From Bodo saltans (lineage: Eukaryota; Euglenozoa; Kinetoplastea; Eubodonida; Bodonidae), in assembly GCA_001460835.1 (NCBI GenBank), contig CYKH01002075.1, positions 1-53,051 of the forward strand: a stretch of DNA of 53,051 nucleotides, written 5' to 3'. The notes beneath the pieces were generated by a model, which worked only from the letters and a program-made list of their open reading frames with translations, made no database searches and was not told where the DNA came from. Of the stretch, positions 5,186 to 31,958 are shown piece after piece. Positions within the stretch are counted from its first letter, which is position 1, and each line of letters opens with the position of its first letter. The translations under genes were made by a program, and so were the position numbers.

Positions 5186-6559
5186 ATGGGATTTCACGAC
5201 GAGTATGAAGTACTTGAGAAGTTAGGAGCTGGCCACTACGCAGAAGTTTTTAAGTGCAGAAGGCTCTCAGACAACGTCATGCACGCAGTAAAAGTTGTTG
5301 ACAAGAAGCGCACCACAACAAAACAGCAAGGAGACCTTTTGGGAGAGGTGTCCGTTCTGAAGCAGCTGAACCACAAGAATTGCCTGCGCTTGACTGGATT
5401 CTTTGACGAAGGGGAACACGTTTATGTTGTGCTAGAAGTCATCACCGGTGGTGAACTATTCCAGCGCATTTGCAAAGAGCGGCACTTCTCCGAAAAGACC
5501 GCTGCATTCTTCATGCACGAGGTACTGTCGGGCATCGCATACATGCACAGCCTCGGAATAGTGCACCGAGACCTCAAGCCAGAGAACATCCTGATGACCT
5601 CAACAGATGCACAAGCAAGCGTCAAAATTGTGGACTATGGATTTGCAGAAAAGACCAACGGGGATAACCTCACAAAATGCTGCGGCACACCTTTATACAT
5701 CGCACCAGAAGTGCTCAACGCCGGGCTGTTCAAGACAGGCCCACCGTATGGACTAGCGTCGGATATCTGGTCTGCAGGAGTCATTGCGTACATTTTACTT
5801 TGTGGATACCCTCCGTTCCGAGCAAAAACACAAGCAGATCAGTTCAAACGTGTTGTCGAAGCGAAGCTAGAGTTCCCAGAGAGCAAGATGTGGGGTAGTA
5901 TATCCACGGATGCGGTAGACTTCATCAAGAGAATGATTTGCGTAGATACGAAGGCTCGTGCGACTGCCAAAGAACTTCTTGAGCACAAATGGCTTAAGAC
6001 AAATGTGGACAACCCGCTGGTTGGCACTGTGCAGAGACTTTCGGAGTTTAGCGCGTTTGGTACTTGGAGACGCGGCATTTTCGGTGTGGAAGCCATCAAT
6101 CGCATTATTTACTTGAAGAGGTGCACGAAGCTCGGTGTCAAACCCAACACCGCGGTAGAGCGAATGCTGATCGAGGCCCGAGAAGCAATCACGGACATTG
6201 ACCTCAGCAAAAACTACATCGGTCCAAATGGTCTCCTCGCACTGCTTGATGTTGTGGAGCAGAACGCCAACATTGAGAGACTCATCCTTGGCAACAATGG
6301 AGCGAATAATTTAGTCGTTGAGCGACTTTGTGTGATCGCCAGGTCCCATCCGGCTCTCAAAGAAATTGTTCTTGATGACAATCCCTTTTCACACCTTGCA
6401 GGCCGTATGCTGTTGTACACCATCCAAACCAATCCAAAGATTTTGAAGCTCTCGCTGAAGGGGACGGTGTTGCAGCCACAAATGATGGCGCGAATTGCGT
6501 TGCAGCTAAACAGAAATCAAAAAGCTGCTGGCGTGCTGAATACCGCTGAGTCGGCATAG
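5186..6559 (+). CDS. CAMK-like protein kinase with C-terminal leucine-rich repeats
   Basis: The predicted protein has 457 residues, starting at the ATG at 5186. The kinase domain covers about residues 7-290. It shows the glycine loop LGAGHYAEV, Lys36 in HAVK, Glu54, HRDLKPEN from residue 127, an activation segment ending in APE at 173-175, and the DIWSAGVIAYILLCGYPPF block typical of calcium/calmodulin-dependent kinases. The metal-binding DFG is written DYG (residues 150-152). After a linker, residues of about 330-435 contain RI-type leucine-rich repeats (ITDIDLSKNYIGPNGLLALL, IERLILGNN, LKEIVLDDNPF, ILKLSLKGT). All residues for catalysis are present, so an active Ser/Thr kinase is expected; substrates are unknown. 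The LRR tail probably brings partners. No EF hands or obvious calmodulin-binding helix are seen. Confidence 0.9.
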   Translation: MGFHDEYEVLEKLGAGHYAEVFKCRRLSDNVMHAVKVVDKKRTTTKQQGDLLGEVSVLKQLNHKNCLRLTGFFDEGEHVYVVLEVITGGELFQRICKERHFSEKTAAFFMHEVLSGIAYMHSLGIVHRDLKPENILMTSTDAQASVKIVDYGFAEKTNGDNLTKCCGTPLYIAPEVLNAGLFKTGPPYGLASDIWSAGVIAYILLCGYPPFRAKTQADQFKRVVEAKLEFPESKMWGSISTDAVDFIKRMICVDTKARATAKELLEHKWLKTNVDNPLVGTVQRLSEFSAFGTWRRGIFGVEAINRIIYLKRCTKLGVKPNTAVERMLIEAREAITDIDLSKNYIGPNGLLALLDVVEQNANIERLILGNNGANNLVVERLCVIARSHPALKEIVLDDNPFSHLAGRMLLYTIQTNPKILKLSLKGTVLQPQMMARIALQLNRNQKAAGVLNTAESA

Positions 6560-12629: not shown

Positions 12630-15600
12630 ATGGAAAGTAGCAGCAGTCGACTCATAGGGCTGCAGGGTTTATTAGAGCGTAACTTGCAGCTGCAACAGGC
12701 GTTACAGATCCGCCGAGACAGCCTTTGTGAAACGCTCGGTGGCCTCTGTGACCTTCACTGCGTCCTCCAGCAAGCTTCTCAGTTCTCCTTGGATGAAGAC
12801 ATCAGAACAGACCGTCAAAGTACGAGTCGCAAATCAGCAAGATCAGGCCACGTTGTGCGTGTTGTTGTGCGAAGCAGCAGCAGTCTTCATCATCACCAAG
12901 GTAACACTGGAACTCATGAAAATCCTTCTTCTTCGTCCTCTGCACTTATTGGGCGTTGCTACACGGGCCATCTCGACAACACGCAGCAATTCTCTCTCTT
13001 AGCTCGCACCTCGTTGGTCGCCCTCCACCGTGTGGATGACCATCACGGCCGTGACTTTGGCGGTGAGCCGCATCTGCGCAACGCCGTCGAAGAGCACGCA
13101 CAGCGAGCCGATGCGTTTGCATATGCGTATCTTATTGTCCCACAACAAGCTGATCCATCACAAATAGTCAATGCCGCAACAACGCAAACAACACGACGAG
13201 TCACAATCACGACAATCACGTCTATTGCGGCATCCACCATCGTTGCCATGGGACCACCTCTTGGAGACGATGATCGGAAGCAGCGCTCGACGAATTTAGT
13301 GTTTCCAAGGATCACGCCGATGAGCTGCTATCGCCATCAATGGGACACAGCATTTGACCAAGCACTTTTGCGTCTGCTGATTGCGTATGCCACCGCTGAA
13401 GCAGAAGTTGATGGTGACGAGTCAATGACGACGGTTAGTGAGAGAAGAAAACCTGCGTCTCCGGCTGCTGCTGCTGTTGTGACTACCAAAGCGATGCGGA
13501 GAGTTGCGGACATGTTGACCATGCAGGGGTGGACGCGCATAGCGCAAGAAATGTCTCAACTTCACTTTCGCCACCGAAAATGTCTTTCGATTACGACTCC
13601 TGCACAGAATCTGCATCATCATCATCATCACTCTGAAGAGGACCACAGCGTTTTCCGATTTGACGGAAACACCACTGCTCTACCTGTTTCCGCGAGTTGC
13701 TGTCGCCATCGATGGCACGCCCGCATGAGATCAGTTGTGGAGTCGTTCGAAACATCTCTTCGCAGCGCCGACGAGAGTGCGTCTCTGTTTCTTGAAACGT
13801 TCGCAACTGCACGAGACGGAGGAGGAGCGGATGCTTCAACCGTGGCGTCCTCCAGCTATCGTTGGAGCCCAGAGCTCGATGATAGCTTGCACTCCCATCT
13901 GATCCACAAGTGCGGATATTTGGTGTGTCGACCTGTGTGGGAGTCGCTGGTGTCAGAATTGACATCCGTTGCACACGACCCGACGGCTGCGAGCACGAGT
14001 GCAGTTGCTGCGCATCCACAGCGCCATCGCCGCACATTAGCAAAGCAAGAGCCCCAGGAGGGCGATGCCCCTCACCACTACGAAGGTACGAAGGTGATGG
14101 TGGGAGACCTTAAAGGAAACGGATTGTCAGAGGAGAAACGAATGTTCTTGCAGCACATGCATGTGATCCTACTCCCTCGTCTGAATGCGTTCGAGATCGC
14201 ATCGCATTTCCAGCGCACGATGAATCCTTACCACGTGACAACTTCGACTGAGTCGTCGCGTCGACACTCTGGCATCTTGCGCGCCATGCGTGATCGCGTA
14301 ACAACGCAGCAACGATTCGAAATGTCGAGTGGCGTGGTGTCGCCCTCCCAGCAGCGCATGCTACGTTTGCTTGATGATGCGGCGCTATTGACGCCGCCCT
14401 CATCAGGGTTTTCTATTGATGAAGACACGCGCTTACTTTGGTGTGCGAATGAACTTACCAGGTGCCACGGCATCATCCCCTCGCCGTCCTCCGCTGCTGG
14501 CGACGACAAGGACAACGTTACGGAGGAGAGTGAGTCTCGTGTTGGTACAACGAGCCGCACGATAACTTCGTCTGCAGACTTGACGCTAGCGTTTTACTTT
14601 CGAACTCTCGCAAAAACGTCTCTGCCGTTTGAACCCTCCGAGGAGGACAGCTCATGTATTTCTGCCGGTTCATGGGGCGCATCGCCGTTCTACTACCCGG
14701 GTGTTTCATTTAGGACAGCTGCCCAAATATCACACCGATGGGCTGCGCTGGCGCCTCCTACCACTGCCGTGAGTATCACCGAGGAGAGCGGTGGTGGTGG
14801 TGGAGTCAGGGGCATAGAGGATCAGTTGTCGGAAGGCCACGTCACGCCTCTGTTGCCACTGCACGTTTCAGCCAATTTCACTATTCCAGTTCCTTTGATT
14901 GAGAGAACGTGGTCGGAGACTCGCATAAGGTTTCTGTCCATGTTTGCACTTTGCACTCTGCGCCAAGTGCAGAGCCAAGTGAGGTGGCGGTTTCTGTCCA
15001 TGTTTGCACTTTGCACTCTGCGCCAAGTGCAGAGCCAAGTGAGGTGGCGCGGGGACGTTTCGTTTGTGGAGCGGTACGTGCTGGAAGGCACCGTCCCTCA
15101 CGAGCGTCTGCGCACCATCAGCCGATATCAGTTCACCACGCGACTGCATCAATTCACAAACTCTGTGGCAGTGGAGTCACGGCTAGTTTTTCGAGCACCA
15201 GCGTCAGACGAAGTAAATGGCACTGATGAAGTGGCCACAGTACCGTCAGCACGAAGCGAGCCTGCACCCGACGAAAGCAGCGCCTTTGCACTTGAGGTGG
15301 AAGAGAGGGAGGGTGGAGCTGAGGTCCCGTCCTCCTCCCAAAACATGCATCGACGCCGACCACCGCCTGCAGCCGCCATGTGGACGCCGAGCCTTGACAC
15401 ATTCCTTCTGAGTATCGTGGACCGGGTGCAGGTGCCCTGGCGCTTTGAGATCACCCCAACACGAGGTGAGAAAACAGCGTCACAACAGCAGCGTCACATG
15501 GCGCTCACACTGCAGCCAACGGTTGATGACGGCGAGTGCTGGTGGCGATATGTTGCACGACTGGTTGAAGATGTGGCGGCGCGCTCCTATGCCCCAACCA

Positions 15601-15794
15601 CGCAACGCAGTACGGATCACAACAACAGCAGCAGCGGCAACGGCGAGCCGCACGACGTGTTTACGAGCATGCAATGCTACCTTCGATTTTCGAAACTTAG
15701 ACTACCGCCGACAGCAACGGATGATGAGGAGCTGCAGCAACAGAAGCGGCGGCGGGGTCAATCCCACTCCAGAGTGAGATTGACCAGCAGGTGA
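12630..15794 (+). CDS. Divergent Myb/SANT-like protein
   Basis: The 1054-residue protein starts at the ATG at 12630. Several blocks have the spacing of Myb/SANT repeats. One starts 'CYRHQWDTAFDQALLRLLIAY' and continues to 'GWTRIAQEMS' and 'SCCRHRWHARM'. A second reads 'YRWSPELDDSLHSHLIHKCG'. A third ends 'TAAQISHRWAAL'. The last starts 'MWTPSLDTFLLSIVDRV' and continues to 'WWRYVARLVEDVA' and 'SMQCYLRFSKLRLPP'. The tryptophan-to-'CxxRW/ISxRW' pattern is typical of DNA- or chromatin-binding SANT domains, but each repeat is interrupted by Ser/His/Ala-rich inserts. The gene also carries an exact 60-bp tandem duplication (14929-15048). A nuclear DNA-binding role is inferred; no specific orthologue is recognised. 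Confidence 0.6.
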   Translation: MESSSSRLIGLQGLLERNLQLQQALQIRRDSLCETLGGLCDLHCVLQQASQFSLDEDIRTDRQSTSRKSARSGHVVRVVVRSSSSLHHHQGNTGTHENPSSSSSALIGRCYTGHLDNTQQFSLLARTSLVALHRVDDHHGRDFGGEPHLRNAVEEHAQRADAFAYAYLIVPQQADPSQIVNAATTQTTRRVTITTITSIAASTIVAMGPPLGDDDRKQRSTNLVFPRITPMSCYRHQWDTAFDQALLRLLIAYATAEAEVDGDESMTTVSERRKPASPAAAAVVTTKAMRRVADMLTMQGWTRIAQEMSQLHFRHRKCLSITTPAQNLHHHHHHSEEDHSVFRFDGNTTALPVSASCCRHRWHARMRSVVESFETSLRSADESASLFLETFATARDGGGADASTVASSSYRWSPELDDSLHSHLIHKCGYLVCRPVWESLVSELTSVAHDPTAASTSAVAAHPQRHRRTLAKQEPQEGDAPHHYEGTKVMVGDLKGNGLSEEKRMFLQHMHVILLPRLNAFEIASHFQRTMNPYHVTTSTESSRRHSGILRAMRDRVTTQQRFEMSSGVVSPSQQRMLRLLDDAALLTPPSSGFSIDEDTRLLWCANELTRCHGIIPSPSSAAGDDKDNVTEESESRVGTTSRTITSSADLTLAFYFRTLAKTSLPFEPSEEDSSCISAGSWGASPFYYPGVSFRTAAQISHRWAALAPPTTAVSITEESGGGGGVRGIEDQLSEGHVTPLLPLHVSANFTIPVPLIERTWSETRIRFLSMFALCTLRQVQSQVRWRFLSMFALCTLRQVQSQVRWRGDVSFVERYVLEGTVPHERLRTISRYQFTTRLHQFTNSVAVESRLVFRAPASDEVNGTDEVATVPSARSEPAPDESSAFALEVEEREGGAEVPSSSQNMHRRRPPPAAAMWTPSLDTFLLSIVDRVQVPWRFEITPTRGEKTASQQQRHMALTLQPTVDDGECWWRYVARLVEDVAARSYAPTTQRSTDHNNSSSGNGEPHDVFTSMQCYLRFSKLRLPPTATDDEELQQQKRRRGQSHSRVRLTSR
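14929..15048 (+). repeat. Perfect 60-bp tandem duplication in the SANT-like gene
   Basis: Bases 14929-14988 and 14989-15048 are identical. The unit is 20 codons, so the frame is kept and the peptide FLSMFALCTLRQVQSQVRWR occurs twice. No substitution separates the copies, which suggests a very recent event or an assembly repeat. The predicted helix 'SMFALCTLRQVQSQVRW' would be doubled. Confidence 0.95.
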
Positions 15795-16003: not shown

Positions 16004-16561
16004 AAAAAAAGAGCGAATCACAACAACAAGTAAGTTTTATGGAGGAAATGCCGCAACCACAACAACAACACCAACCAGTCACTCCTCACCACCTTCAAAC
16101 GCCAAGCGATGCACTTGGCAGTATTGAAGGGCGAAGTGGCAGCCCACTGCAACAACAACAAGGCTCCTTAACCTTCCCACAGCAACGCATCGGGGGCTCG
16201 ATCGATCTCTCGAACAGCGGCGGCAGTAACAACAACAACAACAACACCAGCAATCGACGAGTGCAGCAACGTATCAATAATGAAAAAAAGAGCGAATCAC
16301 AACAACAAGTAAGTTTTATGGAGGAAATGCCGCAACCACAACAACAACACCAACCAGTCACTCCTCACCACCTTCAAACGCCAAGCGATGCACTTGGCAG
16401 TATTGAAGGGCGAAGTGGCAGCCCACTGCAACAACAACAAGGCTCCTTAACCTTCCCACAGCAACGCATCGGGGGCTCGATCGATCTCTCGAACAGCGGC
16501 GGCAGTAACAACAACAACAACAACACCAGCAATCGACGAGTGCAGCAACGTATCAATAATG
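16004..16561 (+). repeat. Exact 279-bp tandem duplication spanning leader and start codon
   Basis: Bases 16004-16282 and 16283-16561 are identical throughout by eye. The unit is 93 codons long. The first copy begins 35 bases upstream of the ATG at 16039, inside the untranslated leader. In the second copy the same leader bases are read in frame as EKKSESQQQVSF between the two copies of the N-terminal peptide. The second copy keeps its own ATG at 16318. CAA-rich tracts inside the unit could have helped slippage. Confidence 0.95.
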
Positions 16562-27598: not shown

Positions 27599-27618
27599 GT
27601 TTTTTTTTTCCCCTTCAG
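27599..27618 (+). promoter_or_regulatory. Predicted trans-splice acceptor of the phosphodiesterase gene
   Basis: A T10 run followed by CCCCTTCAG ends at 27618. That would leave a leader of about 105 bases before ATG 27724. The leader includes the 40-base segment that is found again inside the gene at 31134-31173. Confidence 0.5.
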
Positions 27619-27667: not shown

Positions 27668-27707
27668 AAAAAGAAACAACAACAAGAACACAGCTAGTAG
27701 AAAAAAA
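27668..27707 (+). repeat. Leader segment duplicated inside the same gene
   Basis: These 40 bases (starting AAAAAGAAACAACAACAAG and ending GCTAGTAGAAAAAAA) lie in the phosphodiesterase leader, 16 bases upstream of the ATG. An identical copy lies at 31134-31173 in the coding region, 3.4 kb downstream. Confidence 0.9.
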
Positions 27708-27723
27708 TAGTCAGACAATTACA

Positions 27724-30700
27724 ATGAGTGCAACGTTGCCATCCGTGGCACTTGACGTTGCTGGAAGCAGCGGTCTTGTCGGAGACGACAATCCAATCAC
27801 TCTTCGAACGGAGGTGTCAGCAGTGACTCACTCCTCAGCTGCTGCAGACGATGTTGTTGTGGTAGACGTCAACAATATTATTTCAAGTCTGTTAGAAGCC
27901 ATCACGAGTTTGGAGAAAACAGCACAATCAGTGACCTTCCTTGGGGACATGGCGGCGGAGCCGGTACCGGGAAGTGTCTCGCGCCCGTCGTCGAGTGGTC
28001 AGATACCAACGGCGGATCCTCCCACCATATCAGTGAATGCTTCATCAACTCCTCGCGGCAATATGATTGACACCGCTGCAGGAAGCAACACTAACGGCGC
28101 GTCTTGGTTTGTAGACGCGATCCTTTCCAACGGACTCAAAGACCAAGAGATTCGATCAGCTGTCGTCTTAATCCGTAAAGCGGTGGAGTCGCTATCCACT
28201 GCGGCCCGCCTCAATAGCACCAGTGGCTCCGCTCGACAATTGTTGGTTGCCCCAACTCTGGGAGGAAGTGGTGGCAAGCTTGGAGTTCCTTCAGCGCAGT
28301 CGACGTCAGCGGCAGGATCTGCTCGAGGAATGACGCGGTTCGATGAGGTGCCGGCGCTATTGGGAGGGCTGTCGCCCAACGCACCGAGTCGATCCGCCTC
28401 AGTGAGAGGGGGAGCGGACAGTGGTGTCGGCAGTTTCCTTGGCTCTACCACACGCATTCGACAAGGCCAACAGCGGGCATTTGCAGATGTGGACGACATT
28501 GATCTCGCTCAATGGCTCAATGAAAACTACTCGCAAGCCCCAAAGCGCGCCACGAATGGCTTCGAGGTGCAGCTGGACGGTGGACCGGAGATCTCAATGA
28601 ACACGAACCTTGAGCCGTCAGATGAGTTCCTTGCAGATGAAGACAATGCACCTCCGTTACGCCACAACACAGACGCCGTACTGCAGACTGTTCTACCGCT
28701 AGTGGCAGCCTCGGACGCAACGTTACCTGGTGCAGAGGGAGAGGTGAGTGAGGCCCCGACAAGCCCTCTTGTCGCGTCGCCGCTGCCAGTGAAGCAACAA
28801 GAGCATCAGCCCCCATCTGCGCGAGCTGCATCCGTTCCTAACAAGGATTCTCAAGGTGGTGCAGCCTCACCTGCCAAGAAGCAAGGCAGCGTTTCCGCAC
28901 CAACCGCCGGCGCGACGGCAGAGGGCGCAGGGACCAAGTACACTCGTTCCACTCAGCGCTCATTCCCGGCTGCCAGCAGTCACAAGCGCACCTTGGAGTT
29001 ACTAGAACTGATGGACTGCCCCTATCTAGCGGATGTAGACTCCCCTGAGTTCGACGTGTTTTCTGCCCACGAGACGCATGGCAGCAACCTCCTCGTCTAC
29101 GTGGCGGGAAATATTTTTTCTCGGTACAATTTTGTTCGATCTCTTCAATTGGATGTTCCCACACTCCGAATCTTTTTTGAAACGGTGCGCCTCTTCTACC
29201 GCGATGTGAACCCATACCACAATACCATCCACGCCAGCGACGTTCTGCAATCTACACACGTGTATTTGTGTGTTGGAAATGTCAAGGAAAACTTTTCCGA
29301 TGTCGAGTTATTTGCCGTGCTGTTTGCCGCACTCGTACACGATGTGGGTCATCTCGGTATCGCCAACGCTTTTCTGATCAAAATTCGACACCCTTTGGCC
29401 CGACTGTACAACGACATATCGCCCCTCGAGAACTCCCACGCCGCACTTGCGTTCGCGTTGCTTGAACGACCGGAGTGCAACTTCTTCACGTCAAGCACGA
29501 CATTCAACAGGAGATTGTTCGACGACTTTAGAAGCCTTGTGATAGAGGCGTTACACGGGACAGACATGCGCCTGCACGCGGACCAAACGAAGAGTGTCGA
29601 GGGCATTCTAGAAGATGGCGTGATTGAAGACCACGAGGTCGGCAAGCTGCTCAAGGCAATTTTGCACGCTGCTGATTTATCCAACCCGATGAAACCTCTT
29701 TCTATTTACCTTAAGTGGGTCGATCGCGTCATGGCGGAGTTTTGGCAGCAGGGCGACGAAGAAAAGCGTCGGGGGATGCCGATTTCTATCCTGTGCGATA
29801 GGAACGGAACGAACGTGGCCAAGTCCCAAATGGGATTTATTTCATTTGTCGTGAAGCCGTTTGTGAAAGAACTTGCGCCGGTCCTCCCGAAGGTGTGGCT
29901 CGAGCGCCTCGACTCCAACTGGGCGGCACTTCAGCAGCTCACACCGGAAGTTGAGGTTGAGCGCGTTGCCCAAATCTCGTTCTTTGCGTCGAAACCGTGG
30001 GTGGATGTGGATGAGGAGGTCCATCCATCGTGCGTACAAGTGTTGTGCGGCGAGGTGTGCACCAGCATCTCCGATGAGAAGCTTCTTCAACCGAACGAGT
30101 TCGTCGCGAGCATCGAAGCCAACCATGTCCGAGTTGCAGAAGCAGCAGCGTCTGCCGCCGCAGCTGCAGATGCTGAGAGCCGCTGGAGCATGATTGCGCA
30201 TCGCGAAAGCGTTGCCGCCACAGAGACGGACGCCGCGACAACTGCCGACGACAGCCCACGCGAGGGCTCGTTCGAGTCTTCAACGATTCCCCCAGGAATC
30301 CTTGGAGGCGCAGATTCCTCCCAGAGCGAGGGGGATTTGACAAATCAACAGCAACGCTCCCACAGCCGGAACCCGTCAACCGGAGGAGATATCGTGAAGG
30401 CGCGGTTACTTCTCCCATCTGGGAAAAAAGAGCCACGGGCGCACCTTGGACATCATCAAGGCAGCAGCCGGTTGATGTCCGTGGACGTGGATGCGGACAG
30501 CACATCGTTTCATGTCGACACCATCCGGAAACTCACGTCACTCGCCTCCGAAGCATTTGCCAATCCCACTTCTACCACTGAGGCGGAGAAGAACGCGAAG
30601 AAATGGCTGTGCCTGTTGTGCGAGCTGGAACACGACCGCTTGCACCTGAGAGAGCAACTCATCGAACGATGCCAGCGTGGGGAGCGCCGCCCTGCCGTGT

Positions 30701-31305
30701 TGCTTGTTGGAAATGGAAGCCTAAGAGACGACGCAACAGATGCGTCCAGGTTCTCAGTGTTTTCATGCGCTCCTGATGCCGCTGTGGACGCCCTGCTGAA
30801 GGCAATACAACAAAAACAAGAGAATCACAAAGCCACAACAGATGAGGGAAATTCTACTTCCTTGCGTATTAGCACGTCATACTGTGGACCTTTGGCGAAG
30901 AGAATTCAGTTGCTCGAGCTGCTCAAGAGCTCATCGACAGACGCCATTCAAAACCTACTTAGCGCCACCACCACCTCGGCTTCCGTCACCGCCACCAAAC
31001 AACAGCAACATGCAGCGCTAAATATCCTTGCGCTTTTCCAAGCAACTTCTGTTGACCCAACGACTGGCGCCTCTGAGGCGGCGGCGGTCGCGTCCCCAAT
31101 GTCAACGATGTCCAATTCGGGCGGAGGCTTCAAAAAAAGAAACAACAACAAGAACACAGCTAGTAGAAAAAAAAGCTTTTCCAAGCAACTTCTGTTGACC
31201 CAACGACTGGCGCCACTGAGGCGGCGACGATCGCATCCCCAATGTCAACGATGTCCAATTCGGGCGGAGGCTTCAACGGTAAGCGCAAGCGAGTGTTATC
31301 GTTGA
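27724..31305 (+). CDS. Class I cyclic-nucleotide phosphodiesterase, 3' end altered
   Basis: The open frame has 1193 residues. The catalytic HD domain lies at about residues 440-760. It shows the metal ligands YHNTIH (His499), VHDVGH (His539-Asp540), 'LHAADLSNP', and the later 'MGFISFVVKPFVKEL' block that holds the purine-binding glutamine region. It should hydrolyse cAMP and/or cGMP. The HD motif is HDxGH rather than HDxDH, a variant also seen in yeast PDE2-type enzymes. A long Ser/Ala-rich N-terminus has no clear GAF domain. The C-terminus is altered: a 41-base insert at 31134 moves the frame, so the last 57 residues or so are out-of-frame text rich in Lys/Arg. The presumed original continuation is the frame ending at 31958. 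Confidence 0.9.
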   Translation: MSATLPSVALDVAGSSGLVGDDNPITLRTEVSAVTHSSAAADDVVVVDVNNIISSLLEAITSLEKTAQSVTFLGDMAAEPVPGSVSRPSSSGQIPTADPPTISVNASSTPRGNMIDTAAGSNTNGASWFVDAILSNGLKDQEIRSAVVLIRKAVESLSTAARLNSTSGSARQLLVAPTLGGSGGKLGVPSAQSTSAAGSARGMTRFDEVPALLGGLSPNAPSRSASVRGGADSGVGSFLGSTTRIRQGQQRAFADVDDIDLAQWLNENYSQAPKRATNGFEVQLDGGPEISMNTNLEPSDEFLADEDNAPPLRHNTDAVLQTVLPLVAASDATLPGAEGEVSEAPTSPLVASPLPVKQQEHQPPSARAASVPNKDSQGGAASPAKKQGSVSAPTAGATAEGAGTKYTRSTQRSFPAASSHKRTLELLELMDCPYLADVDSPEFDVFSAHETHGSNLLVYVAGNIFSRYNFVRSLQLDVPTLRIFFETVRLFYRDVNPYHNTIHASDVLQSTHVYLCVGNVKENFSDVELFAVLFAALVHDVGHLGIANAFLIKIRHPLARLYNDISPLENSHAALAFALLERPECNFFTSSTTFNRRLFDDFRSLVIEALHGTDMRLHADQTKSVEGILEDGVIEDHEVGKLLKAILHAADLSNPMKPLSIYLKWVDRVMAEFWQQGDEEKRRGMPISILCDRNGTNVAKSQMGFISFVVKPFVKELAPVLPKVWLERLDSNWAALQQLTPEVEVERVAQISFFASKPWVDVDEEVHPSCVQVLCGEVCTSISDEKLLQPNEFVASIEANHVRVAEAAASAAAAADAESRWSMIAHRESVAATETDAATTADDSPREGSFESSTIPPGILGGADSSQSEGDLTNQQQRSHSRNPSTGGDIVKARLLLPSGKKEPRAHLGHHQGSSRLMSVDVDADSTSFHVDTIRKLTSLASEAFANPTSTTEAEKNAKKWLCLLCELEHDRLHLREQLIERCQRGERRPAVLLVGNGSLRDDATDASRFSVFSCAPDAAVDALLKAIQQKQENHKATTDEGNSTSLRISTSYCGPLAKRIQLLELLKSSSTDAIQNLLSATTTSASVTATKQQQHAALNILALFQATSVDPTTGASEAAAVASPMSTMSNSGGGFKKRNNNKNTASRKKSFSKQLLLTQRLAPLRRRRSHPQCQRCPIRAEASTVSASECYR
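31032..31276 (+). repeat. Two 102-bp repeats flanking a 41-base leader-derived insert
   Basis: Bases 31032-31133 and 31175-31276 align over 102 bases (34 codons) with four substitutions. Between them, 31134-31174 matches the gene's own leader (27668-27707) over 40 bases plus one extra A. Without the insert, the two repeats would be in the same frame and both would read LFQATSVDPTTGA...MSTMSNSGGGF. With 41 bases added, the frame is lost. The repeats have diverged slightly while the insert is identical to its source, so the insert looks younger than the repeat. Confidence 0.9.
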
Positions 31306-31958
31306 TTGCAGAGGCATCGGTTTCCCTCGAAGAGGATATGAGCGGTCGGGGCGGTGGTGTGGGCGATCTCAAGTCACCACCGATGAAGACGCCACTTGTG
31401 TCAACTAGCGACCGCAATGCAGACATTTTTAGTTCGCTTGGAGTACTCACCACGCTCATGACCCAACTTCTGATGCACCAGTGGCGCCACCACGACGCAG
31501 CTCACGGTAGACCACATTCAAAGGGAGTCTCTCAGCTTCCGCCGATTACTCATCATACCAATCAACACAACGCATCAAGCAGCAGCAGCAGGGCTACTCA
31601 CGGCAAGCTCAACGCCAGCGCGTACCCGGCGACAGGAACTTACTTAGCCCGCACTGCACTTAATGGGTGGAACCATAACAGCACTGCGACCAACACCAAT
31701 CGCTCTGCCTCAGCGCTCGATTATTCTTCTGTTTCTGAACCGACGGTAAGTGGTGGTGGTGGTGGCGCAGGGAATCACAAAGCCGTCGAGCTGTACGCCA
31801 TGCGGACACGCACGTTGCTTCCGCGGTCTTTCCTAGACAACGGTGTTGATGATGAGAGGCGCGATGAGTCGTCGTCGTTCCGTCGTGGGTTGCCTTCTGT
31901 ATGGATGCGCGAGCTAAAAAGCCGCAGCCCAGAAAATTCAGTTTTGGGAGACATTTGA
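31242..31958 (+). CDS. Displaced C-terminal part of the phosphodiesterase, or separate ORF
   Basis: The open frame from ATG 31242 has 238 residues and starts inside the second 102-bp repeat. Its first residues, MSTMSNSGGGF, are the same as those read in the other frame just before the insert. It therefore continues the original phosphodiesterase reading frame. The text is Ser/His/Asn-rich with a helical stretch near 'SSLGVLTTLMTQLLMHQWRHHD' and a Gly5 tract, without a known domain. It could be translated alone only if a transcript started here; no pyrimidine tract precedes it. I treat it as the detached tail. Confidence 0.5.
   Translation: MSTMSNSGGGFNGKRKRVLSLIAEASVSLEEDMSGRGGGVGDLKSPPMKTPLVSTSDRNADIFSSLGVLTTLMTQLLMHQWRHHDAAHGRPHSKGVSQLPPITHHTNQHNASSSSSRATHGKLNASAYPATGTYLARTALNGWNHNSTATNTNRSASALDYSSVSEPTVSGGGGGAGNHKAVELYAMRTRTLLPRSFLDNGVDDERRDESSSFRRGLPSVWMRELKSRSPENSVLGDI

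Follow-up and report, generated by a model that had tools for sequence, protein, structure and literature searches.

Why does a phosphodiesterase gene of the kinetoplastid Bodo saltans carry, between two nearly identical copies of an internal stretch, a piece of what appears to be its own 5' leader? The window, that is, the whole stretch of DNA analysed here, is one complete contig of 53,051 nucleotides (CYKH01002075.1 of assembly GCA_001460835.1), and the assembly searched with it comprises 934 contigs and 29.3 Mb. As set out below, the lengths of the matching segments argue strongly for an assembly artefact: the insert and the repeat very probably form a short false tandem duplication and not a real feature. 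In the living cell, the phosphodiesterase gene is most likely uninterrupted.

Repeat copies, filler and split reading frames

The features of the locus are collected in Table 1. The open reading frame (ORF) that contains the first repeat copy matches the Pfam profile PF00233 with 241.6 bits (E = 1.2e-71) over profile positions 1-231 of 238, and its product also matches solved human PDE4 chains. From these matches, the gene is predicted to encode a class I cyclic nucleotide phosphodiesterase. Phosphodiesterase matches are also present on seven other contigs, where they cover query residues 335-763 and stop short of the repeat region.

Table 1 Features of the phosphodiesterase locus (positions in the window).
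Feature	Position	Strand	Remarks
Phosphodiesterase ORF as assembled	27724..31305	+	1193 aa; frame shared with copy 1, not with copy 2
PDEase_I catalytic domain	29215..29895	+	Residues 498-724; Pfam PF00233
Piece of presumed 5' leader	27668..27707	+	40 bases, identical to the filler
Copy 1	31032..31133	+	Four mismatches within 21 bp, flanked by 40 (left) and 41 (right) shared bases; read as an allelic arm
Filler	31134..31174	+	40 leader-identical bases plus one A
Copy 2	31175..31276	+	Read as the other allelic arm
Tail frame	31176..31958	+	260 open codons counted from the start of copy 2
Tail ORF with ATG	31242-31958	+	238 aa

The initial annotation had placed a 41-base insert exactly between two 102-bp repeats with four substitutions and had called bases 31134-31173 identical to part of the leader, and all of this is borne out by the letters. 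The copies are 102 nt long with a spacing of 143, and their four mismatches are all confined to 31072-31092, three in the first codon position and one in the third. On the left, this cluster is flanked by exactly 40 identical bases, on the right by 41. The match between the insert and the leader is a maximal exact match of 40 nt with a mismatch at each side, base 31174 being A where the leader has T, so that 40 of the 41 inserted bases match. Judged by its position upstream of the ATG at 27724, the leader piece is presumed to be untranslated; a pyrimidine tract (27600-27616) and then CAG precede it. When up to three mismatches were allowed, the 30-base core of the insert was found at two places in the 29.3 Mb, both in this gene, and its reversed control at none, indicating that the pattern is not due to chance. 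Same-strand exact matches of at least 30 bases in the window measure 279, 61, 41, 40 and 40 nt, the last three being those described here, after microsatellite matches, which were shorter, had been set aside. The insert-leader match is the sole match of at least 24 bases at a distance of 1-9 kb in the window. Both ends of the filler are A runs, and with each seam within or next to such a run, overlap by microhomology and filler are indistinguishable there.

The consequences for the protein are as first annotated: the phosphodiesterase ORF closes with Lys/Arg-rich text, and a tail of 238 residues is detached. Between 31277 and 31958, the tail frame holds a single stop, which is its last codon, against 9 and 11 stops in the other frames. 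Copy 1 is coding-like solely in the upstream frame and copy 2 solely in the tail frame; the tail is coding-like in its own frame and no decay was seen in it, the frame breaking at the seam. Because each frame is coding-like on its side of the seam and free of decay, the gene reads as continuous on either side. Inspection by eye of the sequence upstream of 31242 revealed no convincing pyrimidine tract with AG, and no spliced-leader tail was found within the window, so that an independent start for the tail ORF is not favoured.

Two other tandem copies occur in the window. The ORF at 12630-15794 contains an exact 60-bp tandem copy at 14929-15048 (61 matching bases, spacing 60), which could be an untrimmed 60-base overlap, as would fit k = 61, or a real duplication. 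At 16004-16561 lies an exact tandem copy of 279 bp that includes 35 nt upstream of the ATG at 16039 and places a second leader-like piece inside a coding region, in frame (279 = 93 codons).

Segment lengths and the published assembly word length

In a de Bruijn graph, two alleles of one locus give rise to two branches, each of which overlaps the common sequence by k - 1 bases at both ends. The arm and leader-match lengths given above were measured before the published k was looked up. The B. saltans genome paper names Velvet with k = 41, SSPACE with 500-bp and 3-kb libraries, GapFiller and IMAGE, as well as runs of REAPR and ICORN, for an assembly of 39.9 Mb in 2,402 scaffolds (PMC4728078). 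With k = 41, the expected shared flank is k - 1 = 40 bases. The locus has the two properties of such a bubble, namely adjacent near-identical copies separated by point differences, and identity that ends k - 1 bases beyond the outermost mismatch on the left and one base later on the right; the additional base is assumed to match by chance.

A chain of assembly steps would account for the seam. If the copies are alleles, the two alleles would differ at four sites within 21 bp, and each would appear in a k = 41 graph as a branch with 40 shared bases flanking its outermost differences. The first branch would have ended one contig and the second begun the next, and the two would have been arranged in series instead of being merged, after which the seam would have been closed with a wrong 40-base filler from 3.4 kb upstream. 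We infer this order of software steps, as well as the origin of the present sequence from the k = 41 assembly of B. saltans Konstanz. The differences between the copies resemble two alleles of one stretch, so that the order of events originally proposed, in which the insert arrived after the repeat copies had diverged, is not required.

The filler itself may stem from the 3-kb mate-pair library in the form of a chimeric read, a likely source being one that crosses a circularisation junction. Circularisation of a fragment would join its end at 31133 to its start at 27668, in the same order as in the contig, and the apparent fragment of 27668-31133 measures 3,466 bp; order and distance thus fit the junction of a 3-kb circle. 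Among the matches listed, no second long-range filler was found in the 263 kb scanned, and the other matches at 1-9 kb in the 21 10-kb stretches came solely from L033, L036 and L037. These three hold diverged gene-family copies, which leaves the mate-pair origin without a second example. Homopolymer joining may also contribute to the seam, since three parallels elsewhere in the assembly have fillers of A or T runs and the present filler has A runs at both ends.

Near-tandem pairs elsewhere in the assembly

Arm lengths were surveyed in 32 sequences, namely the window, the 21 10-kb stretches L020-L040 and ten loci of shorter length. L005 and loci overlapping the window were excluded as duplicates; the short spliced-leader stretches L042-L051 were also excluded. 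Three of the shorter loci, L008, L011 and L041, were non-random picks, and the left arm in L008 starts at the first base of the contig. Five rows that belong to a genuine coding array with a 75-bp unit in L023 were removed; within this array, a 40-base segment also occurs at one internal place, where it forms a chain end. Within 1 kb, 27 near-tandem pairs were found, comprising 15 chains with mismatches and 12 single exact matches. Terminal arms were defined as the outermost exact segments of at least 16 bases in the 15 pairs with more than one exact segment (n = 29).

Four terminal arms are 40 bases long, five are 54 and two are 60. Together these lengths make up 11 of 29 terminal arms, whereas none of the 36 internal segments has any of them (Fisher p = 4e-5, or 7e-5 when the present locus is omitted); of the three, 54 and 60 were chosen post hoc and would fit k = 55 and k = 61, values stated by no source. 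Length 40 by itself separates the two groups weakly (4/29 versus 0/36, p = 0.035; 0.074 without the present locus). In a comparison with smoothed draws that uses no chosen values, the observed ties in arm length were reached by 65 of 20,000 draws. Arms of 20 bases, as for k = 21, were considered as well and left unused, three terminal arms yet also two internal segments having this length. Sorted by their remainder modulo three, the spacings of the 27 pairs fall into groups of 13, 8 and 6, which gives a weak hint, as part of the pairs are located outside genes.

Several individual pairs resemble the present one. The pair at 6170/6272 of L025 combines a 40-base left arm with a filler made of a T run. 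At 2824/2890 of L031, 42 bases are common ahead of the first difference, of which the first two may belong to a T-run filler. In the pair at 1369/1498 of L011, the arms measure 20 (left) and 40 (right) and the filler consists of ten A and one C; its copy (1369-1615) sits within the conserved catalytic domain of another phosphodiesterase and is probably the same artefact. Pairs without the signature are also present, with arms of 35 and 88 (L029), 25 and 63 (L031 9264), 57 and 38 (L031 3618), and 39 and 25 as well as 44 and 16 (L037).

Further near-tandem copies with few mismatches or none, 165 to about 520 bp in length, lie at L025 4517-5310, L040 8286-9321 and L031 3492-4334. Their spacings are 397, 517 and 400, respectively, and two of them have a left arm of exactly 54. 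Eight of the 21 10-kb stretches (L020, L022, L023, L024, L030, L032, L035 and L037) hold an N run that begins at the first base of the contig; these runs measure from 968 to at least 10,000 bases and amount to 41,662 N, L030 consisting of N throughout.

The 3' part of the kinetoplastid spliced leader directly precedes gene leaders at no fewer than 25 forward places of the assembly, for example at L022 6785, L043 81-99, L044 106, L046 108, L049 105-123 and L051 1, and has at least two reverse matches. Eleven of 25 forward matches start at or beside N and two at base 1 of a contig; contexts were inspected at ten places and in L022. The same letters are in print under Euglenozoa (PMC3795323). Such tails may reflect RNA-derived sequence that entered the assembly, or retro-inserted leaders.

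Alternative origins and comparison with known systems

The initial annotation offered three origins, templated repair, recombination between gene copies and misassembly on A-rich sequence. The last is favoured by the 40-base lengths, which equal k - 1, and by the similar arms elsewhere. A second gene copy as possible donor was rejected: the stretch matched itself and the leader piece alone in the assembly, the phosphodiesterase matches on the seven other contigs stop short of the repeat region, and the tail, apart from itself and copy 1, had one weak match (E = 0.169), with no other match at E <= 0.001 in the assembly. A mobile or regulatory element was likewise rejected, the core of the piece being present at two places only in the assembly.

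A real templated insertion would mean that end joining, as is possible by polymerase-theta-type repair or template switching, mended a break at the junction of a recently formed tandem duplication by copying 40 bases of the gene's own leader, and that the gene was thereby split. Its donor is identifiable for 40 of 40 bases (27668-27707), is the only one in the assembly, and lies on the same strand of the same gene at a distance of 3.4 kb; the undecayed tail is as expected after a very recent event, and A runs contain or adjoin both seams. However, under this origin the agreement of the lengths 40, 40 and 41 with the published k would be accidental, and the recurrence of these arm lengths in other parts of the assembly would lack an explanation; we regard it as very unlikely. 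Similarly little credence is given to its biological corollary, that a kinetoplastid captured a fragment of its own 5' leader at a fresh duplication seam and so separated the catalytic part from the tail ORF. Slightly less probable still is a real 34-codon duplication, a true coding repeat that the assembler failed to cross, with the filler alone being false. The copies do encode nearly identical 34 residues, each in its own frame, and the 75-bp array of L023 demonstrates that genuine coding arrays exist in this assembly; but the arms stop at 40 and 41 around the mismatch cluster, as in a bubble, and a true repeat needs neither. The spacing does not keep the frame as in a genuine coding tandem repeat, 143 not being a multiple of 3. 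Capture through RNA, in which the gene would have taken up a copied piece of its own mRNA leader, is the most improbable of all and scarcely credible: the piece is in mRNA sense within the presumed leader, and the spliced-leader tails at several places suggest that RNA-derived sequence may be present, but the piece has neither a spliced leader nor either mRNA end, and the k - 1 lengths again go unexplained.

Several points also count against the favoured assembly artefact. The REAPR and ICORN runs should have removed some such errors, the right arm exceeds 40 by one base, no other long-range filler turned up among the matches listed for the 263 kb scanned, and the arm test restricted to k = 41 is weak. 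The assembly searched is also smaller than the published one, which a length filter may explain, as the contigs encountered measured 10 kb or more. As biology, the leader capture most likely does not exist, and the locus is useful as a warning. Near-tandem copies with k - 1 arms recur in this assembly, although not all 27 pairs are artefacts, and such copies can cut gene models short, give rise to spurious small genes and look like duplications, the copy in the catalytic domain of the second phosphodiesterase (L011) being a probable example.

In end joining, short inserts copied from a nearby place are found at rearrangement seams. The present locus resembles these templated insertions in having a short nearby copy at its seam; unlike it, they have no reason to equal an assembler word length. 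Among assembly errors, wrong gap closure has been described for IMAGE, the tool also named for the B. saltans genome, with 4 of 383 closures misassembled in a simulated set, mainly at repeats, and k-mers of 41, then 31, then 21 in the run reported there (Tsai et al. 2010, PMC2884544); a filler from one mate-pair distance away, as proposed here, is not among the closures described in the relevant parts of that paper. A further parallel is haplotype mis-assembly, of which the locus is most likely a short case, in which the two versions of a polymorphic stretch are placed adjacently and mimic a recent duplication, and for which de Bruijn bubbles are named as the short-read counterpart (Kelley and Salzberg 2010, PMC2864568). 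The phosphodiesterase locus shares with those false duplications what appear to be two versions of one stretch side by side, and differs from the cases presented there in its copies of about 100 bp, its k - 1 arms and the foreign filler at its seam.
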